NCBI GenBank assembly: GCA_015486215.1
Contig: WFSA01000253.1
Location: 1-50,320 of the forward strand
Direction: 5' to 3'
Length of the DNA stretch: 50,320 nt
Source: Anaerolineae bacterium
GTDB taxonomy: Bacteria; Chloroflexota; Anaerolineae; Promineifilales; Promineifilaceae
Of the stretch, positions 2,305 through 50,320 are shown in pieces; the first letter of the stretch is position 1, and each line of letters starts with the position of its first letter. The notes beneath the pieces were generated by a model. That model saw only the letters and a list, made by a program, of their open reading frames with translations, searched no databases and was not told the origin of the DNA. A program made the translations under genes and the position numbers.

Positions 2305-4743
2305 CTACTCTTCAATATCATCATCAGTGATAGTGAATGCATCTGAGAAATACATCGTAGCCAGTTCATCCAACACTCCACTCGCCTTTAATTCAACCAA
2401 AGCAGCATTGAACGGCCCGACTAATTCGCTGTCAAGCGGGAAGACAAAACCAAGTTGGTCACTGGAGAGTGATTCGCCAATCAGTTCAAGAGCTTCTGCA
2501 TTTACGCCAAGATACCCTTGTCCAGCGGTCTCATCCATCACAACAACGTCGATGTCGCCAGCAAGAAGAGCTTGCACAGCAAAGGGGAATTGCTCGAACG
2601 CTTCGATGCGGCCTTCGCCAAACAGGGCAGCGGCCGTTTCGTAATTTGTCGTACCAATTTGCGTACCAATCTTGAGGTCTTCATTAGCGATAAGATCATC
2701 GGCAGAAGCAAAACGATCTTCACCTTTGCGAACGAGGAAACGTTGATCGATGCTGATATATCCATCAGAGAACGCGACAACTTCGGCGCGATCTTCGGTG
2801 ATGGTGATGCCGTCAGCAGCCATATCAAATTGACCATCAGCTACCGCTTGAATCATCCCTTCCCACGCTGCTTCAACGTAGACAGGAACACAGTTTAACA
2901 TTTCGCACATCGTATCAATCGCATCATAATCCCAACCAGCCGGTTCGCCTGTTGCCAATGAGATGTAATTGAAGGGCAGATACGCATTTTCAACCGCGAC
3001 AGTCACTTCCATACCTTCTAAGTCAGGAAGTTCAACCGCATAAGCACCATCACCAATATCATCGTAAGTGATTGTGAATGCGTCAGAGAAATACTCAGAA
3101 GAGAGTGCTTCTAATGTGCCATCAGCTTTGATGGCCGCAAGAGCGATGTTGAACGGTTCAACCAAGTCGCTACCGGGAGAGAATACGAACCCGAGTTGGT
3201 CGCCTGCAAGCGGCTCACCAATCAGTTCTAATTCGTCAGCGTTGACACCGAGGTACCCTTGTCCAGCGGTCTCATCCATCACAACAACGTCGATGTCGCC
3301 AGCCAACAAGGCTTGCACGGCGAAGGGGAATTGCTCAAACGCTTCGATGCGATCTTCGCCAAACAGGGCGGAAGCGGTTTCGTAATTGGTCGTACCAACC
3401 TGCGTACCAATTTTGATGCTTTCGTCAGCTAAAATATCCTCAGCGGAGGCAAAGCTATCTTCGCCCAAACGGACGAGGAAGCGTTGGTTGATGTTGATAT
3501 AGCCATCGGAAAAGTCTACGATTTCGGCGCGGTCATCGGTGATGGTGATACCGTCGGCTGCCATGTCAAATTGACCATCGGCTACCGCTTGAATCATCCC
3601 TTCCCATGCAGCTTCAACATAGACGGGGGTACAGTTGAGCAGTTCACACATCACACCAATCGTATCATAATCCCAACCTGCGGGTTCACCTGTCTCTAAT
3701 GAGATGTAATTGAAGGGCAAGTATGCGTTTTCTATGGCGACGGTTACTTCACGACCACCCAAATCAGGCATTTCAACCTCTTCTGCACCGTCATCACCAT
3801 AAGCTCCGTCACCAATATCATCATAGGTGATGGTAAATGCGTCGGAGAAGTAGGCGGAGGATAATGCTTCCAATGTACCATCTTCTTTCATGGCAGAGAG
3901 AGCGGCGTTGAACGGTTCAACCAAGTCGCTGCCGGGAGAGAATACGAACCCGAGTTGGTCGCCTGCAAGCGGCTCACCAATCAGTTCTAATTCGTCAGCG
4001 TTGACACCGAGGTACCCTTGTCCAGCGGTCTCGTCCATCACAACAACGTCGATGTCGCCAGCCAACAAGGCTTGCACGGCGAAGGGGAATTGCTCAAACG
4101 CTTCGATGCGATCTTCGCCAAACAGGGCGGAAGCGGTTTCGTAATTGGTCGTGCCAACTTGCGTACCAATTTTGATGTTTTCGTCAGCTAAAATATCATC
4201 AGCGGAGGCAAAGCTATCTTCGCCCAAACGGACGAGGAAGCGTTGGTTGATGTTGATATAGCCATCGGAAAAGTCTACGATTTCGGCGCGGTCATCGGTG
4301 ATGGTGATACCATCGGCTGCCATGTCAAATTGACCATCGGCTACCGCTTGGATCATCCCTTCCCATGCAGCTTCAACGTAAACGGGGGTACAGTTGAGCA
4401 TTTCACACATCTTGTTGATGGTGTCATAATCCCAACCAGCAGGTTCGCCTGTTTCCAATGAGATGTAATTGAAGGGGAGGTATGCGTTTTCTACGGCGAC
4501 GGTTACTTCACGGCCACCAAGATCGGGTAAACCACTCTCTTCATTTACGGCTGGTTCTTCAACGGCTTCGTCAACCTCTGGGGCGGCTTCTTCAACTTCT
4601 TCAGAAGCCTCCTCAGAAGTTTCTTGAACGGCTGTCTCTTCAACTGCCGTTTCTTCAGCAGGTTTATCCGCGCTGCCGCCACAAGCGGCAAGCGCAAACA
4701 TTAACATTAATGCAAACAATAAGGGGGACAATTTTTTCAACAT
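2305..4743 (-). CDS. Lipoprotein with three tandem family-3 solute-binding (amino-acid type) domains
   Basis: An 812-residue exported protein. Residues 1-20 form a signal peptide with lipobox LAAC, Cys21 being the lipidation site. Residues 25-70 are an acidic Glu/Ala/Val linker. Three copies of a periplasmic binding protein (SBP_bac_3) domain follow, starting near residues 72, 325 and 572. Each holds the same landmarks: ENAYLPFNYISL, WDYD, EAAWEGMIQAVADGQFDM, an Arg in DRAE (the usual carboxylate ligand of amino-acid binders) and Asp in MDETAGQGY. Usual family members have one such domain of about 250 residues. Copies 1 and 2 are almost identical also in DNA; copy 3 is more diverged. No permease or ATPase gene is adjacent, so it is an orphan binding protein. 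An SD sequence (AAGGAG) precedes the start. The gene has no ACGGCCGT octamer. Ligand unknown; polar amino acid is the family default. Confidence 0.93.
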   Translation of the reverse strand: MLKKLSPLLFALMLMFALAACGGSADKPAEETAVEETAVQETSEEASEEVEEAAPEVDEAVEEPAVNEESGLPDLGGREVTVAVENAYLPFNYISLETGEPAGWDYDTINKMCEMLNCTPVYVEAAWEGMIQAVADGQFDMAADGITITDDRAEIVDFSDGYININQRFLVRLGEDSFASADDILADENIKIGTQVGTTNYETASALFGEDRIEAFEQFPFAVQALLAGDIDVVVMDETAGQGYLGVNADELELIGEPLAGDQLGFVFSPGSDLVEPFNAALSAMKEDGTLEALSSAYFSDAFTITYDDIGDGAYGDDGAEEVEMPDLGGREVTVAIENAYLPFNYISLETGEPAGWDYDTIGVMCELLNCTPVYVEAAWEGMIQAVADGQFDMAADGITITDDRAEIVDFSDGYININQRFLVRLGEDSFASAEDILADESIKIGTQVGTTNYETASALFGEDRIEAFEQFPFAVQALLAGDIDVVVMDETAGQGYLGVNADELELIGEPLAGDQLGFVFSPGSDLVEPFNIALAAIKADGTLEALSSEYFSDAFTITYDDIGDGAYAVELPDLEGMEVTVAVENAYLPFNYISLATGEPAGWDYDAIDTMCEMLNCVPVYVEAAWEGMIQAVADGQFDMAADGITITEDRAEVVAFSDGYISIDQRFLVRKGEDRFASADDLIANEDLKIGTQIGTTNYETAAALFGEGRIEAFEQFPFAVQALLAGDIDVVVMDETAGQGYLGVNAEALELIGESLSSDQLGFVFPLDSELVGPFNAALVELKASGVLDELATMYFSDAFTITDDDIEE

Positions 4744-4940: not shown

Positions 4941-5060
4941 GTATCTTCTCAGCCTATCAATTATTTCACCATAAAGAAGCAAAGATCACAAAGAAAATCT
5001 TAAAAAACGCTGTGTTCTTCGTGTCTTTGTGGTTAATTTGGACAATGGCTGAGTAGTTAC
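4941..5060. repeat. 120-bp GTAACTACTCAGCC-family element, copy 1
   Basis: The right end is the complement of GTAACTACTCAGCC, while the left end reads GTATCTTCTCAGCC and so looks like a hybrid with the other MITE family. The interior matches the copies at 10702-11034 and 27488-27607. No matching flanking duplication is visible, which fits decay or recombination. It fills the gap 4744-5132 together with the promoter region. Confidence 0.75.
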
Positions 5061-7755: not shown

Positions 7756-8511
7756 TTACATTTTTGTGGGAAAGTCAAAAAACTGCGTTTCCATCTCAAG
7801 TTTTTGGGCGAGATGGCGGCCCAATGCTTGTACGCCGACGGTTTCAGTGGCGTAATGGCCGGCAAAGATCACATTCATGCCGTAGTCGGATGCTGCCCAA
7901 TAGTTGGCGTGGGATGTTTCGCCAGTAAGCAGCGTATCCGCGCCTAACGCTTTCGCTTCGGCGACTAAATCGGCACCAAAGCCGGAAATAATGGCGATGT
8001 TGCTGACCGTTTGGCTGCCGTGTGCGAGGACGCGGGCGTTTGTGTCAAGTTTGTCGTTAATTTCGGTGGTGAGGGTGGATAACGGCCGTTTTTCGACCAT
8101 CTCCCCCCACACGCCCAACGGCGTGCCGTTGGGTGATGCCCATGTGCCAGCCACATTCACGCCCAGCATCTGCGCCAACACCGCGTTATTACCCACATCC
8201 GGATGCGCGTCTAACGGCAGATGGGCGGCGTAGAGATTCACGCCATGCTCCATAAACAGCCGCACCCGCTCGCCCAACGGCCCAGCAATACGCTCCACGC
8301 CGCGCCACAATACGCCGTGATGCACCAGCAGCATATCTGCGCCCCACTCAGCGGCAGCACGAATGACGGGCGGAGCCGCATCCACCGCCAACCCAATTTT
8401 CAAAATCTCATCATTGCCGCTTTCAACCTGCAATCCCTGCGGCCCATAATCCTTAATCTCCGCAATGCGAAGATATTCATCTAAATAAGTGACTAAATCA
8501 TCTCTTTTCAT
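7756..8511 (-). CDS. Nif3-family dinuclear metal protein (YbgI/GTP cyclohydrolase I type 2 fold)
   Basis: The start [14 protein letters not shown] at 8511 fits the family N-terminus, giving 251 residues; an in-frame upstream ATG at 8571 would add 20 residues unlike the family. Motifs are [19 protein letters not shown] (metal-binding His pair near residue 63) and [14 protein letters not shown] near the C-terminus (His and Glu metal ligands). Members form hexameric toroids with two metal ions per subunit. Their reaction is unsettled, and the name GTP cyclohydrolase type 2 is only an annotation habit. It follows kbl's start by 29 bases on the same strand and may be co-transcribed with it. Confidence 0.85.
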
Positions 8512-8587
8512 AATTTTTTGGGGGAGTATGCAAATGTACAACCAGCCATCTGCCCACTTGCAAACTTGCACCTATACTGCCATCATC

Positions 8588-8752
8588 ATGGGCAGATTTT
8601 TAATTTTGAATGAACCTGTTTTACTTTTGAATGTTACATATGAGCCATTAAATGTGACGACAATGCGACGTGCGTTGACGTTGATTTTATCGGGAAAGGC
8701 CAATATCGTGATCAATGGGCGGGGTGTGGTGCGAACGCAGACGGCCGTTTAA
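8588..8752 (+). pseudogene. Truncated HNH endonuclease, N-terminal fragment
   Basis: The 54 residues starting MGRFLILNEPVLLLNVTYEP match the N-terminal part of the common bacterial HNH endonuclease (pattern VLVLNxxYEPLNVxxxRRAxxLxxxGKA). The zinc/HNH catalytic part, which should follow, is missing. The frame ends in a stop formed directly after an ACGGCCGTT palindrome (reading T-A-V-stop) and is followed at once by repeat DNA (8768 onward). I infer the 3' part was lost when repeats entered. Confidence 0.65.
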
Positions 8753-8767
8753 ACCCAGACCCATCGC

Positions 8768-8872
8768 TAAGGGAAAACTCGTAAATAACTTTGGACTTTC
8801 AGGTGACAGGCACTTGGCAAGTGCCTGTCACCTGAAAGTCCAAAGTTAAAAACGAACCTTCCCTAAGGAACG
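8768..8872. repeat. Repeat R1, copy 1, with a 61-bp perfect palindrome
   Basis: A palindrome at 8787-8847 has two 30-base arms around one central base, with no mismatch seen. It is flanked by GGGAAAACTCGTAAAT on the left and AACGAACCTTCCCTAAGG on the right. An inverted copy with a damaged arm is at 10443-10557, and a copy with a different interior is at 10570-10696. Confidence 0.8.
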
Positions 8873-8974
8873 AGGACTTATTTAACTACCAAAGTTATCA
8901 TTCCCGCCCCCACCTTCGTGAGGGCAAACTCTTTTAGACGGGAATCCATGATTTCCCAGACTGTGGATTCCTAA
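8871..8974. repeat. Repeat R2, partial copy
   Basis: It begins AGGAACGAGGACTTATTTAA and contains ATTCCCGCCCCCACCTTCGT and ATGATTTCCCAGACTGTGGA. The same sequence in the same direction lies on the other side of the kinase gene (10116-10296), and longer inverted copies lie at 16484-16676 and 46178-46373. Confidence 0.75.
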
Positions 8975-10012
8975 TTAACGGTTCGCTGATGCTTTTTCGG
9001 CCGAAATTAAAGCGACGACACCATCATACATCCCTTGCACAGCTTCCACTTCAGTGATACCTAATCTACGGCGATTACTGATGTCATAAACACCACCTTT
9101 GCTCTCTGAGTGTTCCCCATGTAGACCACGAATCTGCAAACGATACTGATCAGTGATCATCTTAAATCTATCCATATCTTGAGCAAGATTTGGTAAGGCA
9201 ATATGCACACTGGCTCGCATTGCTGTTCCAAGATTAGTTGGGCATGATGTTATATAGCCTAAACGCTGAGAGTATAAAAATGGTACGGTTGCCTCGATCT
9301 GTTTTACCGCATTTGCTAAACGGGTAAAAGTTGTTTGAATGTCGCCTCCCATTTGCATAGAGATAATACGCATCTGATCTTCTTCATTTACCCAAACAAG
9401 GAAGGTTTTGTCCTTATTATGGAAAATGCCGCGTCCTGCAGGCCAGTCAGCATTTAGTCCGACAGCGGCAAGAAAGCGATCTCCTTCCTTGAATAAGAAA
9501 TGATCTCTGATTAACTGAGCCTGGATTACCTTAGACATGCCCAGCAGCGGGTAGTAACTGCCAGCTAGATCTCCCTCTAACAAATTTACTGCTGCTACCA
9601 CGGCAGATTCAACTTGATTGCGTTGTGCATTTGAGATGGCTGGGCCAAGCGGCATATCGGCCACATTTCGGCCGACGCGGATGCGGGTAGAGATAATATA
9701 TTTCCCTTCAGGATCGGGATTTGGGGCGTTGAGTTCGGCCGAATTAAAATTGCTTTTATGTACATCAACTTGGGTGAAGCTATGATACTCGGCAATAATC
9801 TGATCAAAAAGCGGCGCAAAAACAGCATAAGACTCTTTGTCTCCAGCGTATACACCAATGCCGCTATCTATATTTTCAACACCTGACTTTATCACTTGCG
9901 CCAGAGTAAAGTTGTTTGCGGTCTTTTTATCTTTTAGCTGATTAAAAATATCCTCAGAGAGAAATTTGCAAAGTAAAGAGGTGCAACTTTCAGGAAATTT
10001 TGGGTAGTTCAT
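8975..10012 (-). CDS. Arginine kinase-like phosphagen kinase, full length
   Basis: 345 residues, with both the small alpha-helical N-terminal domain (about 1-90) and the catalytic ATP:guanido domain. Motifs: STRIRVGRN (substrate/nucleotide Arg), NEEDQMRIISMQMGG, the reactive Cys in SCPTNLGT, RASVHI and the flexible loop RGLHGEHSES. Animal arginine kinases transfer phosphate between ATP and arginine as an energy buffer. The bacterial protein-arginine kinase McsB lacks the N-terminal domain, so this is a true phosphagen kinase type. Arginine is inferred from overall similarity and not proven. The gene has no ACGGCCGT octamer, appears more AT-rich than its neighbours, and is enclosed by repeats R1 and R2. 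These facts suggest acquisition by horizontal transfer. Confidence 0.9.
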   Translation of the reverse strand: MNYPKFPESCTSLLCKFLSEDIFNQLKDKKTANNFTLAQVIKSGVENIDSGIGVYAGDKESYAVFAPLFDQIIAEYHSFTQVDVHKSNFNSAELNAPNPDPEGKYIISTRIRVGRNVADMPLGPAISNAQRNQVESAVVAAVNLLEGDLAGSYYPLLGMSKVIQAQLIRDHFLFKEGDRFLAAVGLNADWPAGRGIFHNKDKTFLVWVNEEDQMRIISMQMGGDIQTTFTRLANAVKQIEATVPFLYSQRLGYITSCPTNLGTAMRASVHIALPNLAQDMDRFKMITDQYRLQIRGLHGEHSESKGGVYDISNRRRLGITEVEAVQGMYDGVVALISAEKASANR

Positions 10013-10115
10013 TTTTGCCTTTCTTTATAATCAGTCACTCCCTTAATGGTTTGTACACCGATTCCTAGATGAACGCAGATGAAAAAACAAAAAGCCAGTG
10101 TAAATCAGTACAATT

Positions 10116-10296
10116 AGGAACGAAGATTTATTTAACTACCAAAGTTATCATTCCCGCCCCCATCCCCACCTTCGTGAGGACAGGCACTTCGTGAGGGTAA
10201 ACTCTTTTAGGCGGAAATCCATGATTTCCCAGACTGTAGATTCCTGCCTTTGCAAAGCCTGCCCTCATGAAGATGGAGGAATGACAATTTGAAGTT
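10116..10296. repeat. Repeat R2, copy 2
   Basis: It is in the same orientation as 8871-8974, but extended by TTCCTGCCTTTGCAAAGCCT and a closing arm at GGAGGAATGAC. It contains an internal duplication of the CTTCGTGAGG segment. The B-type MITE at 10303-10426 is inserted just after its end. Confidence 0.7.
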
Positions 10297-10302
10297 CCGC
10301 AA

Positions 10303-10426
10303 GTATCTTCTCAAAAAATTGGGGGCATGATTACAGCTAATTAGAAAAGGAACGAATCTACTCGACTGACGTAATTTGTTCCTTTCTTATATTAAGTGTA
10401 ATCACCCCGAAATACTGAGAAGATAC
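10303..10426. mobile_element. MITE, GTATCTTCTCA superfamily, type B (copy B1)
   Basis: 124 bp, starting GTATCTTCTCA and ending TGAGAAGATAC. Both flanks carry the perfect 8-bp duplication TTCCGCAA (10295-10302 and 10427-10434). The interior has GGGGGCATGATTACA on the left, a GGAACGAAT/ATTTGTTCC inner stem and GTAATCACCCCG on the right. There is no reading frame. Confidence 0.9.
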
Positions 10427-10442
10427 TTCCGCAAGTTATTAA

Positions 10443-10557
10443 ATTCTCGTTCCTTAGGGAAGGTTCGTTTTTAACTTTGGACTTTCAGGTGACAGGCACT
10501 TGGCAAGTGCCTGTCACCTTGGCCACAGTTATTTACGAGTTTTCCCTTAGTGTCCTA
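10443..10557. repeat. Repeat R1, copy 2 (inverted)
   Basis: It starts TTCCTTAGGGAAGGTTCG and ends TTACGAGTTTTCCC, inverted relative to 8768-8872. The right arm of the palindrome is altered (ACCTTGGCCACAG replaces the matching bases), so the stem is imperfect. Confidence 0.75.
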
Positions 10558-10569
10558 TTCTCAATTAAG

Positions 10570-10696
10570 GGGTAGCCGCTTAAACGAAGAAGCGACGAAT
10601 CGTAAACAACTTTGGCGTTTTCCCCTCCCCGGAAGGGGAGAGGAAGGCTGGGGTGGGGGTAAAACGCCAAAGTTAAAAATGAACCTTCCCTTAGGA
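10570..10696. repeat. Repeat R1, copy 3 with a different interior
   Basis: Its ends match R1 (CGTAAACAACTTTGG and CCAAAGTTAAAAATGAACC), but the centre is a G/C-rich segment with CCCTCCCCGGAAGGGGAG. R1 therefore also shows constant ends with variable centres. Confidence 0.65.
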
Positions 10697-10701
10697 ATAA
10701 A

Positions 10702-11034
10702 GTAACTACTCAGCCATTGTCCAAATCAACCAGAAAGACACGAAGAACACAAAGTGTAAAGATGGTTTGCCCAATTTTGAACTATACCAGATTTTCTTTG
10801 TAATCTTTGCTTCTTTGTGGTAAGGCGATTGCAACCTTGCCTTAATTCGTGATCGTGATCGTGATCGAAAAAACCGATCACGACAATCATAACGTATAAA
10901 TTCTCCGCAATTGACATAACATGTGAATTGCGAAGCTATCAAAAACGGTGTAAATTTGGAATTTAACAGTGCGATTTAGAGGTTGCAATCGCCCTATTCT
11001 TTGTGGTGAAATAATTGATAGGCTGAGTAGTTAC
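10702..11034. mobile_element. GTAACTACTCAGCC-family element, copy 2, interrupted by a second MITE
   Basis: The ends GTAACTACTCAGCC and GGCTGAGTAGTTAC are exact inverted repeats. The flanks GGAATAAA (10694-10701) and GGAATGAA (11035-11042) form a near-perfect 8-bp duplication. Without the insert at 10821-10996 and its duplicated 10 bases, the element would be about the size of the 120-bp copies. Its right flank touches the stop codon of hpf. Confidence 0.85.
10821..10996. mobile_element. Nested MITE with TARGGCGATTGCAACC ends
   Basis: 176 bp, starting TAAGGCGATTGCAACC and ending with the complement of TAGGGCGATTGCAACC. The 10-bp duplication TTCTTTGTGG lies on both sides (10811-10820 and 10997-11006). 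The empty site is visible in the copy at 27488-27607. The interior holds GATCGTGATC repeats and the hairpin GCAATTGACATAACATGTG. Part of this interior recurs at 23843-23934. Confidence 0.88.
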
Positions 11035-11042
11035 GGAATGAA

Positions 11043-11609
11043 TTACATTTCTGGTTGTAGCAAACCATAATTATCATCATGCCGTCTGTAAATGACATTA
11101 GTTTGCTCTTCATCCGCATTAAAGAAAACGAAGAAATCATGGCCGAGCAGTTCCATCTGATCAATGGCCTCTTCGGTAGACATGGGGCTGAGTGGGAAGC
11201 GTTTGCGGCGGACAATATCTTGTGTATGTCCTTCATATTCCAGATTCACCGCTTCTTCGATGGGCAATGGGTCACCGACAATGAATTTTTCGCCGCCGGC
11301 ACGGGAGTTGCGCTGTTGTTTGCCGCGATATTTGCGAATTTGCCGATAAAGTTTGTCTACAACGGCATCAATGGAAATGGAAATATCTTCGCTGCGCTCC
11401 TCCGCACGTAAGATGGTTCCACGTGCATCACGAATGGTAATTTGGGCTGCATACTTTTTAGTCACATTGCGGGCATTTGTCTCTGACAAATCCACACGAA
11501 CATCTCTCAGATCGGGCATATAACGGTCTAATTTTCGTGTTCTTTTCTCGACATATTCACGGGTGCGTTCACTAATTGTAATGCCTTGACCATGTATTGA
11601 GTATTCCAT
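11043..11609 (-). CDS. hpf: Ribosome hibernation promoting factor, long form
   Basis: 188 residues, the usual size of long HPF. Residues 1-100 are the ribosome-binding domain (IHGQGITISERTREYVEKR, then the beta strands VRVDLSE, YAAQITI and the helix with SEDISISIDAVVDKLYRQIR). A basic linker follows (RKYRGKQQRN). Residues 130-188 are the dimerising C-terminal domain with RRKRFPLSPMSTEEAIDQM, LLGHDFFVFFN and VIYRRHDDNYGLLQP. Long HPF joins two 70S ribosomes into inactive 100S dimers in resting cells. No ACGGCCGT octamer lies inside. An element sits right against its stop codon, so any downstream terminator is within repeat DNA. Confidence 0.95.
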   Translation of the reverse strand: MEYSIHGQGITISERTREYVEKRTRKLDRYMPDLRDVRVDLSETNARNVTKKYAAQITIRDARGTILRAEERSEDISISIDAVVDKLYRQIRKYRGKQQRNSRAGGEKFIVGDPLPIEEAVNLEYEGHTQDIVRRKRFPLSPMSTEEAIDQMELLGHDFFVFFNADEEQTNVIYRRHDDNYGLLQPEM

Positions 11610-11759
11610 TGTTATGCTCCTTATAGTTCATAGGGTTTTGATCGTTTTCATCAAAACTCGTTCTTAAATTTGTTGGATTTTCTGTATCGTATCCATGTTA
11701 ATTTATAAAATCAGTGTCTCATTTTCTAGAAGAATATGCAACTATTGCTTATCTCTTTT

Positions 11760-12461
11760 TCATGTTGTTCGTGCCAAGCAGTAGCCCGAAACGCTGTTCG
11801 CGCCAGCCTCTAATAAGGTTTTTGCGGCGGTAACGAGTGTTGCGCCAGTTGTGCATACGTCATCTATGAGCAGGATATTTTTATTGTGGATGGAACGGCC
11901 GTTTGCTTCAAAAGCGCCGCTCAAATTGGAAAGTCTAGCACGGCCGTTTAGCCCGACTTGCGGGCGTGTGTGGCGAATGCGTTGTAATGCGTATTCATCA
12001 TAGGGGCGATTGACGCGCTTGCTGAACTGTTTTGCCAGCAAGGCGGATTGATTATAGCCGCGCAAACGCTGCCGTGTTTTGTGCATAGGGATAGGGAGAA
12101 TGAGATCAACGGGCGTTTCCCACTTCGGCCACTCCTCAGCCATCATCTCCGTTAACGGTTCTGCTAGAGCGAATAATCCATTATATTTGAATTGATGGAT
12201 AATATGGGGGATGTCACCTGCAAATTGAAAAGCGGCACGAATTTGGGTGGTGGGTAAGGGGTCTTTGACACACTCGAAACAGCATTCGGCCGTTTGCATC
12301 ATCTTTTGTCCACAAAATGGGCAGATGGGGGTTTGCACCTGTGGCAATGCTTCTGCACAATCAGCACACACCATCGGCCCCTCCTTTTTGCATACCACAC
12401 ACACAGTCGGCATAAAAAAGGAGAGTACTACATTTGTGAACTTTTTAATACGATCCTGCAT
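11760..12461 (-). CDS. comF: ComF family phosphoribosyltransferase-like protein
   Basis: 233 residues. The N-terminal part has Cys pairs C21-C24, C32-C35 and C47-C50 with C61/C64, a typical ComF zinc region. The C-terminal part has the PRPP-binding signature ILLIDDVCTTGATL near residues 196-209. ComF proteins act in DNA uptake for natural transformation in the cytoplasm, in some species with single-stranded DNA-handling proteins. No other competence gene is adjacent, though Tad pilus genes start 350 bases upstream on the same strand. A MITE (12503-12625) lies 42 bases before its start and may carry or displace its promoter. Confidence 0.93.
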   Translation of the reverse strand: MQDRIKKFTNVVLSFFMPTVCVVCKKEGPMVCADCAEALPQVQTPICPFCGQKMMQTAECCFECVKDPLPTTQIRAAFQFAGDIPHIIHQFKYNGLFALAEPLTEMMAEEWPKWETPVDLILPIPMHKTRQRLRGYNQSALLAKQFSKRVNRPYDEYALQRIRHTRPQVGLNGRARLSNLSGAFEANGRSIHNKNILLIDDVCTTGATLVTAAKTLLEAGANSVSGYCLARTT

Positions 12462-12502: not shown

Positions 12503-12625
12503 GTATCTTCTCAAAAATCTGGGGGCAAGGGTACAACAGATTAGGGAAAAAACAGATTTTCTCGGCTAACGCAATCTGTTCCTTTCTTCATCTGTTGTAC
12601 TCACCCCGAAATATTGAGAAGGCAC
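12503..12625. mobile_element. MITE, GTATCTTCTCA superfamily, type B (copy B2)
   Basis: 123 bp with start GTATCTTCTCA and end TGAGAAGGCAC. The perfect 8-bp duplication GCAAATTT lies at 12495-12502 and 12626-12633. It sits in the gap upstream of comF. Confidence 0.9.
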
Positions 12626-20002: not shown

Positions 20003-20318
20003 GGAGATAGAGAGGGGAGATAGAGATAGAGAGGGGAGATAGAGATAGAGAGGCGAGATAGAGATAGAGGTAGGGGGCAGAGGTATTTGATGTTAGAAGC
20101 AACATTAAAACACAAATACCCTCTATCTCCATTCTCTATCTCCATTCTCCATTCTCTATCTCCATTCTCCATTCTCCATCTCCATTCTCTATCTCCATTC
20201 TCTATCTCCATTCTCCATCTCCATTCTCTATCTCCATTCTCTATCTCTATCTCCATTCTCTATCTCCATTCTCCATTCTCTATCTCTAGCTCCAACCCCT
20301 AGCTTACATTATACTTGA
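20003..20318. repeat. Purine/pyrimidine simple-sequence tract
   Basis: First GAGATAGAGATAGAGAGG-type purine repeats (20003-20075), then about 160 bases of CTATCTCCATTCTC pyrimidine units on the same strand (20119-20296). The two parts are complementary, so a long imperfect hairpin can form. Similar tracts lie at 31332-31490 and 46408-46506, and inside the end of the kinase gene. Any open frame in it is a by-product of the repeat. Confidence 0.85.
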
Positions 20319-27487: not shown

Positions 27488-27607
27488 GTAACTACTCAGC
27501 CTATCAATTATTTCACCACAAAGAAACAAAGATCACGAAGAAAATCTTAAAAAACTTCGTGTTCTTCGTGTCTTTGTGGTGAATTTGGACAATGGCTGAG
27601 TAGTTAC
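27488..27607. mobile_element. 120-bp GTAACTACTCAGCC-family element, copy 3 (intact)
   Basis: The ends GTAACTACTCAGCC and its complement are exact; the perfect 8-bp duplication GAATGAGA lies at 27480-27487 and 27608-27615. The left duplication overlaps the stop of the upstream gene. The interior contains TTCTTCGTGTCTTTGTGG. This is the best reference copy of the family. Confidence 0.92.
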
Positions 27608-31331: not shown

Positions 31332-31490
31332 GACGAGAGATAGAGATGGGAGATAGAGATGGGAGATAGAGATGGGAGATAGAGATAGAGAATACTACTC
31401 TACACTCTACACTCTATCTCTACCTCTATCTCTACACTCTACACTCTATCTCTACACTCTACACTCTATCTCTACACTCTACCTCTATCT
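31332..31490. repeat. Purine/pyrimidine simple-sequence tract
   Basis: GAGATAGAGATGGGAGATA units followed by CTCTACACTCTATCTC pyrimidine units, again able to fold back. It lies between the isochorismatase-fold gene and the VWA gene. Confidence 0.85.
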
Positions 31491-46373: not shown

Positions 46374-46407
46374 CGTTAGCCGTCACCTTTTACCCATCCG
46401 CACCCCC

Positions 46408-46506
46408 AATTCTCCATTCTCTATCTCCATTCTCCATCTCTATCTCCATCCTCCATCTCCATCCTCCATCTCTATCTCTATTCTCTATCTCTATCTCTAT
46501 CTCTAT
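46408..46506. repeat. Pyrimidine simple-sequence tract
   Basis: CATTCTCTATCTCCATTCTC and CATCCTCCATCTCTATCTC units ending 17 bases before the PfkB gene, as in the tract before the sensor kinase gene. Confidence 0.85.
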
Positions 46507-46523
46507 GCTAAAATCAGACCATT

Positions 46524-48297: not shown

Positions 48298-50320
48298 ATG
48301 CCGCTTGCACACTTTCGTAAGCATATCGCCCCATCAACGGCCGTTTTCCTCACCTTCATAGCCGCCCTTGCATCGCTTCGCGCTTTATATGAGGGGACGT
48401 TTCCCCGTTTGGCCTTTTTGGCTATGCCGCTTTCAAATCTACTGATTGCAGGGATGGCCGCCGTGGGCGGGGGGCTGTTTTTGTGGCGATGGGCGGCGCA
48501 GAAAAGCGATTCCATCTGGCTGCCAACGGCCGTTTTCCTCCCCCTCCTCCTCAATTTACTTTATTTGCCACAAACGGCCGTTCACCCCCAATTCGGCAAT
48601 TTCCTCCTCTTCACCAGCATCTGGCTGACCGCATTGCTCACCGCCCATCTCGTTCAGCCGCACACCCCGCGATGGCAAGATGCCCTATTTCTACTCATTT
48701 ATACCGCTCCCATCTATTTGTTGACAATGGGGCGCACCGTCGGCAAAGCGGACAGCTTCGAATTCCAAGTCGTCATCCCCCAATTGGAGATCGCCCATCC
48801 GACAGGATATCCGCTCTACATTTTGCTGACCAAATTGCTCACCCTCTTCATCCCCATTGGCGAAATGGCGTGGCGGGTGAACATGATCACGGCTAGTTAC
48901 GCCCTTCTCGCCCTCTACTTGCTCTACGAACTGATGCGCCATCTCACCGCGATGCCGATCATCGGCGTGCTGACCGCCGCCCTCTTCGCCCTCACCCCCA
49001 CCTTTTGGAGCCAAGCGATCAATGCCGAAGTGTACAGCCTCAACAGCCTCATCATCACCGCCGCCCTTTTACTGATGGCAAAAATCAGCCGCGAGCCATC
49101 CCGCCGTCTCCCCTTCGCCCTTGCCATCGTGCTGGGATTAGGGTTGACCAACCATCTCACCACCGTTATTTTATTGCCGACGGCCGTTCTCACCCTCTTC
49201 TCCGCCCGAAAAAAGATCAACCTCCGCCCCGTCACCCTGCCCGCACTGCTGATCGCCTTCCTGCTGCCCCTGTCACTCTACGCCTATCTCCCCATTCGCT
49301 GGCAAGCACTGCACGACGAGCCAATGGGCGCGTCCCGCTTTATCGAGTGGGTTATCGCCGGCCGTTTTCGCGGCGCATTGCAGCTATGGGCGTGGCTACA
49401 CGATCCTGCCCGCTACACCGTCGTTGCCCGCCTGCTCACTGCCGAATGGACACTGTTTTATCTCCTTGCTGCCGGCATCGGTCTCCTGATTTTAGCGAAA
49501 ACGCAGTGGCGACACGCCTTCGCCCTCACCCTCACCTTTGCGGGATACAGCTTTTACGCCCTCAACTATTACGTCCCCGATTTAGCCGTCTTTCTCATTC
49601 CCGCCCATCTCATCATCGCCATTCTCATCGGCACAGCCGCCGCCAAAGCAGACCGCTCGGCCATCCTGTTCACCCTTTTCGCCCTGCCGCTCTTTGCGCG
49701 GGCGGGGATGGAAACGTGGGCGCAGCTGGATCAATCAACCGACGACGGCTTAACGCGCTGGGGCGAAGCGGTGCTGGCTTTGCCCCTAGCCCAAAACGGC
49801 ACCATTCTGGCCGACAGCGAAAAAATCGCCCCGCTCTACTATTTACAACGAGCAGAAGGGATGCGCCCCGACTTAGACATCCTCGTCCTGCCCGACGAAG
49901 CGGCTTACCGCGCCGAAGTAGACGGCCGTTTAGCCGCCGATCAACCCGTCTATCTTGCCCGCTACCTGCCATCCCTCCACACGATTTATTATTTAAGGGC
50001 AATGGGTCCATTAACCGTTGTCTCCACCCACCCCCTCACGGATCTGCCCGATGGCATAAACCGTATCTCCGAAGCTGTTGGTGAACTCACGCTGATCGGC
50101 TACACCATCGAAGCCGACGCGGCCATTGCCGAGGGGGAGACGGCCGTCACTCTCTACTGGCAGGCTGACGCGCCCGTCAGCCGCCCTTTGCATATTTACA
50201 TGCGCTGGCAAAACGGCGATCCAATCAATCGCGCAGGAACTCACCCCGTCCATAACAACTACCCAGCCAATGCGTGGCGCGATAACGAAATTGTGCCCGA
50301 TTTTTACACACTCCCCCGTC
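48298..50320 (+). CDS. DUF2723-family membrane protein (predicted GT-C type glycosyltransferase), 3' end outside window
   Basis: The open frame from ATG 48298 to the right edge has no stop (674 codons seen). The first 30 residues (MPLAHFRKHIAPSTAVFLTF) lead into many membrane helices. KADSFEFQVVIPQLEIAHPTGYPLYILLTKL is the DUF2723 signature (first extracytoplasmic loop with Asp and Glu, then HPTGYPLY), near residues 143-173. More helices follow to about 480, then a soluble C-terminal domain containing LAQNGTILADSEKIAPLYYL. The family is related to O-mannosyltransferases that use lipid-linked sugars. A direct acceptor is unknown. The frame is unusually rich in ACGGCCGT (six copies). The start codon lies at the edge of the TTTGCA tract. 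Confidence 0.85.
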   Translation, partial: MPLAHFRKHIAPSTAVFLTFIAALASLRALYEGTFPRLAFLAMPLSNLLIAGMAAVGGGLFLWRWAAQKSDSIWLPTAVFLPLLLNLLYLPQTAVHPQFGNFLLFTSIWLTALLTAHLVQPHTPRWQDALFLLIYTAPIYLLTMGRTVGKADSFEFQVVIPQLEIAHPTGYPLYILLTKLLTLFIPIGEMAWRVNMITASYALLALYLLYELMRHLTAMPIIGVLTAALFALTPTFWSQAINAEVYSLNSLIITAALLLMAKISREPSRRLPFALAIVLGLGLTNHLTTVILLPTAVLTLFSARKKINLRPVTLPALLIAFLLPLSLYAYLPIRWQALHDEPMGASRFIEWVIAGRFRGALQLWAWLHDPARYTVVARLLTAEWTLFYLLAAGIGLLILAKTQWRHAFALTLTFAGYSFYALNYYVPDLAVFLIPAHLIIAILIGTAAAKADRSAILFTLFALPLFARAGMETWAQLDQSTDDGLTRWGEAVLALPLAQNGTILADSEKIAPLYYLQRAEGMRPDLDILVLPDEAAYRAEVDGRLAADQPVYLARYLPSLHTIYYLRAMGPLTVVSTHPLTDLPDGINRISEAVGELTLIGYTIEADAAIAEGETAVTLYWQADAPVSRPLHIYMRWQNGDPINRAGTHPVHNNYPANAWRDNEIVPDFYTLPR

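Follow-up and report, generated by a model that had tools for sequence, protein, structure and literature searches.

The window, by which we mean the whole analysed stretch of 50,320 nucleotides, carries one phosphagen kinase gene, the only copy in the host genome. The gene stands alone, is preceded by its own AAAGG-like sequence resembling a ribosome site and is presumably expressed. No arginine genes lie beside it. The features of the locus are:

7756-8571, minus strand: NIF3 (DUF34), the conserved left neighbour
8588-8752, plus strand: truncated HNH-endonuclease gene, first ~54 codons (~180 aa at full length in relatives)
8767-8867, unstranded: MITE-like palindromic repeat A, left copy
8866-8972, plus strand: dispersed repeat R, left copy, cut off at the kinase stop codon
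8973-10113, unstranded: non-repeat stretch comprising the kinase and ~100 bp upstream, delimited by blastn against the dispersed repeat copies
8975-10012, minus strand: arginine (phosphagen) kinase gene, 345 aa, assigned from Pfam, PDB and active-site residues
10114-10296, plus strand: dispersed repeat R, right copy, in the same orientation as the left copy
10301-10425, plus strand: dispersed repeat C, with more copies near 12503, 18490, 23733 and 44583
10440-10550, unstranded: right copy of palindromic repeat A, in inverted orientation with respect to the left copy
10702-11035, unstranded: element D, ~333 bp, with terminal inverted repeats GTAACTACTCAGCC, adjoining HPF
11043-11609, minus strand: HPF (ribosome hibernation factor), the conserved right neighbour

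The interval from the HNH stub to HPF measures ~2.3 kb and consists largely of dispersed repeats and the kinase stretch, 8973-10113 being the only non-repeat part that carries a gene. Copies related to element D are found at 4941-5060 and 27488-27607. In the blastn mapping of repeats, matches to locus L087 were disregarded because L087 is the window itself.

The kinase ORF runs from an ATG start to a TAA stop and has no internal stops. Pfam places the N-terminal domain (PF02807) at residues 9-73 (E 2.3e-27) and the catalytic domain (PF00217) at residues 133-341 (E 2.6e-74), and the top PDB matches, covering residues 7-341, are animal arginine kinases. Arginine kinases also ranked first in a fold search with an AlphaFold model built from seven sequences. 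Since the confidence of this model is middling (mean pLDDT 77, active-site loops below 50), it confirms the fold only. Analysis of the sequence confirmed that the gene at 8975-10012 is predicted to encode a complete, intact two-domain phosphagen (arginine) kinase.

The original prediction of a full-length phosphagen kinase with an N-terminal domain, distinct from McsB, is borne out by the detection of both domains. McsB has the catalytic domain and catalytic residues in common with the window kinase (27-28% identity), but it lacks the N-terminal phosphagen-kinase domain, and the McsB genes at the compared loci are located alongside mcsA and clpC. The NCBIfam McsB models scored far under their cut-offs on the window kinase and left its N-terminal ~100 residues uncovered. 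An identity as McsB was rejected on the presence of the N-terminal domain, the low NCBIfam scores and the different genomic context.

Inspection of the active site covered 15 positions that serve catalysis or contact ligands in Limulus arginine kinase. The window kinase has the identical residue at 14 of them, the remaining one being a change from Val to Ile. The mapped residues are S50, G51, I52, G53, Y55, R110, R112, H171, E211, R215, C257, T259, R266, R295 and E300. The guanidino-specificity loop is of the arginine-kinase type (Limulus Ser63-Gly-Val-Gly-x-Tyr68, here S50-G-I-G-x-Y55), and Limulus Glu225, Glu314 and Cys271 (here E211, E300 and C257) are kept together with all the nucleotide-binding arginines. 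By reference to the Limulus structure, we take S50, G51, I52, G53 and Y55 to form the arginine-binding loop, E211 and E300 to be the catalytic glutamates, C257 to be the reactive cysteine, and R110, R112, R215, R266 and R295 to bind ADP. The catalytic and arginine-loop residues are also intact in 25 homologs from Campylobacterota and Bacteroidota, where only the Gly64 position varies. Invertebrate arginine kinases (Limulus 1bg0, Litopenaeus 4bg4, Anthopleura 4rf6) share both domains and the active site with the window kinase, which differs from them in being bacterial, in its shorter N-terminus and in its position nearer the Campylobacterota proteins in the tree.

The kinase was found in none of 51 other genomes of the host family, and PF02807, the N-terminal domain family, in none of 399 other genomes sampled across the host phylum. 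The proposal that relatives should be checked for the gene is thereby answered. The claim that the enzyme is new to the lineage agrees with the family and phylum samples but needs qualification at class level, where a draw of 396 genomes returned one other genome with a very distant phosphagen kinase (36-37% identity; L109 1495-2397, minus strand), belonging to another family of the class. By inspection, the ORF beside the L109 kinase resembles an ABC transporter whose C-terminal part is of the cyclic-nucleotide-binding kind. For the named loci, taxonomy was taken from their records. Vertical inheritance from an ancestor of the host phylum, followed by massive loss, could draw on this class member. 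Its homolog is much more remote than the Sulfurovum genes described below, the 51 other family genomes are without the kinase and the gene order of the family is conserved without it, and we regard such an origin as very unlikely.

The gene is found elsewhere among bacteria. In Campylobacterota, the phylum of a Sulfurovum MAG, it is present in 19 of 397 genomes including the central one, that is in 18 of 396 further genomes, at 59-74% identity to the window kinase, and several copies are located on chromosome-sized contigs. Two genomes of a flavobacterial order (Bacteroidota) encode kinases with 57-58% identity. A search of viral contigs for the kinase gene gave no match. Carriage by phages or plasmids was rejected, as the matches were McsB-like and partial, apart from one homolog with 36-37% identity on a plasmid of Candidatus Bandiella woodruffii, a Euplotes endosymbiont. 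That homolog (L053 5941-7038) is annotated as hypothetical and adjoins IS elements.

Comparison with relatives revealed a conserved gene order, KBL-NIF3-HNH-HPF-ComF-TadC. Of eight family loci examined, three have all six genes in this order, and every one has HNH-HPF-ComF. In the window the HNH gene is cut short; its missing part was not found in the window, and no match elsewhere in the host genome exceeded 37% identity. The conserved order, the cut HNH and the filled gap between HNH and HPF together imply that the kinase sits in host DNA, where it arrived in a lineage-specific manner.

The original prediction had also pointed to repeats on both sides of the gene, there called R1 and R2, as fitting acquisition. 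Repeats are indeed present on both sides, but they are host repeats dispersed throughout the genome. Repeats A and R gave 91 genome matches with both orientations counted; as the palindrome is hit on either strand, this amounts to roughly 50 separate places. Their presence alone is therefore no mark of a transfer. Neither the Campylobacterota and Bacteroidota kinase loci examined nor the eight family loci showed copies of these repeats. A dedicated kinase transposon was rejected, given that the repeats occur at ~50 places and the kinase once.

An assembly or binning artefact, by which a Sulfurovum fragment was misjoined into the contig, has to be weighed here. The assembly is a draft of 341 contigs with repeats at both kinase edges, misjoins are conceivable in principle where a repeat exceeds the length of short reads, and the composition of the kinase is Sulfurovum-like. 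However, the kinase abuts, on both sides, host repeats that are absent from the Campylobacterota and Bacteroidota loci examined, and its protein differs by 26% from every sampled Sulfurovum. Mis-binning is unlikely, since the gene is joined on both sides to genome-typical DNA whose outer flanks continue the gene order of the family.

The closest relatives of the window kinase are Sulfurovum-type kinases of Campylobacterota, with 72-74% identity, a value that refers to proteins of Sulfurovum MAGs and not to the S. lithotrophicum sequence itself. They agree with the window kinase in length, in their two-domain layout and in the catalytic residues; the window kinase differs in its host lineage, in having no argB linkage and in being embedded in host repeats next to a broken HNH gene. 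Identity to animal and trypanosome arginine kinases is 53-55%. The phylogeny that had been proposed as a check was run with long-branched sequences excluded, and the best tree nests the window kinase inside the Sulfurovum-type set with moderate support (85/73 and 80/68), apart from six animal and trypanosome domains. The nesting is less firm in AU tests, where placements outside the Sulfurovum set or with eukaryotes gave p 0.12-0.25 and neither was rejected. Trees including McsB, Bandiella and the class member L109 are uninformative because their branches are very long. The terminal branch of the window kinase is 0.31, and no sampled genome can therefore be the immediate donor.

Direct acquisition from an animal or protist, independent of the Campylobacterota genes, would be in keeping with the wide occurrence of arginine kinases in animals and with the identity to the animal enzymes. 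Grouping the window kinase with eukaryotes costs ~16 log-likelihood units, a constraint that the AU test does not reject (p-AU 0.116). A bacterium is the more probable donor, rather than an animal or protist, because the closest relatives are the Sulfurovum-type genes, within which the best tree also places the kinase, and we consider a direct eukaryotic origin improbable.

The composition of the gene differs from that of its surroundings. Among 30 long window ORFs it has the lowest GC3, 0.382 against an average of 0.558 (sd 0.074) for the rest, in agreement with the prediction that it is AT-richer than its neighbours, and its codon use fits the Sulfurovum loci slightly better than the window's own. 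The reported absence of the octamer ACGGCCGT from the gene is correct. The empty stretch (8741-11895) extends past the insertion, and 20% of random 1038-bp segments are also without the octamer, so its absence is weak evidence of acquisition. Stronger evidence is provided by the phyletic absence, the broken HNH within conserved synteny and the tree. The proposal of an acquired gene is well supported: it is absent in kin, and the conserved gene order is interrupted exactly where the HNH is broken.

Taken as a whole, the data suggest that the window probably carries a functional arginine kinase, acquired horizontally, the donor being a Campylobacterota bacterium of Sulfurovum type or one closely related to it. 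The gene would have moved between phyla from such a donor, with a direction and date that we infer, and would have landed in, or later been enclosed by, the nest of dispersed host repeats between NIF3 and HPF, while the neighbouring HNH gene would have lost its distal two thirds.

Arginine kinase (EC 2.7.3.3) serves to store energy and is most familiar from invertebrate animals. By homology, the window enzyme would catalyse the reversible reaction ATP + L-arginine <-> ADP + N-phospho-L-arginine, making phosphoarginine when ATP is plentiful and passing the phosphate back to ADP when the supply drops. Judged from its sequence, it is most likely a working arginine kinase that would buffer ATP via phosphoarginine.

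The genomic context of the relatives bears on the substrate. Across 23 loci no shared kinase neighbourhood was found, except for argB in three close Sulfurovum-type loci (L006, L007 and L107), and a conserved operon was rejected as a guide to function. In these three the kinase lies downstream of argB, an arginine synthesis gene, with one small unknown ORF of 80-89 aa between them; the three genes are adjacent, overlapping or nearly so, and two-component genes are located upstream. The argB assignment was well above the TIGR00761 cut-off in the two loci tested. The adjacency is circumstantial evidence that fits arginine as the substrate.

The enzyme could instead be a phosphagen kinase that acts on a guanidino compound other than arginine, or have a regulatory role rather than one as an energy buffer, as sequence cannot fix the substrate and arginine genes do not adjoin the window kinase. 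We give this little credence, given that the specificity loop together with E211, C257 and E300 matches arginine kinases, that the related Sulfurovum genes are found near argB in three genomes, and that the enzyme of Sulfurovum lithotrophicum is among the known arginine kinases (PMC6429109).

The same review gives Desulfotalea, Myxococcus, Moritella and Sulfurovum as sources of arginine kinases and describes a debate on whether the bacterial enzymes are ancient or were taken from eukaryotes (PMC6429109). The original statement that such enzymes are mostly animal and protist understates this bacterial spread, as Sulfurovum arginine kinases had previously been reported. The Sulfurovum enzyme (Sulfurovum lithotrophicum / NBC37-1) is cited as already characterised (Suzuki et al. 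2013, cited in PMC6429109), and the window kinase therefore is a new member that extends a known enzyme family to a new lineage. No relevant paper was returned when the literature was searched for phosphagen kinases of Chloroflexi or Campylobacterota.

Tentatively, arginine kinase may be a mobile single-gene energy-buffer cassette that moves between bacterial phyla without a fixed neighbourhood, occurs patchily, in ~5% of the Campylobacterota genomes sampled and in a few Bacteroidota, and here would give the host a phosphoarginine system otherwise missing in its family. With regard to the debate on ancient or eukaryotic origins, the window kinase points to a transfer from one bacterial phylum to another, with a lineage devoid of arginine kinases as the recipient. 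Furthermore, Campylobacterota are indicated as a sizeable bacterial reservoir of the enzyme, and the argB-linked arrangement makes its physiological role testable.

The window has repetitive features of its own. The octamer ACGGCCGT is a highly iterated palindrome with 88 sites (the first at 94, the last at 50140) against ~0.7 expected from base composition. Of the family loci, L034-L036 are likewise enriched in the octamer and L030-L033 and L037 are not, and we regard it as reminiscent of the cyanobacterial HIP1. Low-complexity TCTCTATCTCCAT / GAGATAGAGA arrays recur between genes, e.g. at 20094-20315, 31333-31475 and 46398-46520. Positions 2305-4743 (minus strand) encode an 812-aa protein with three tandem SBP_bac_3 solute-binding domains, which are encoded by repeats of ~750 bp.
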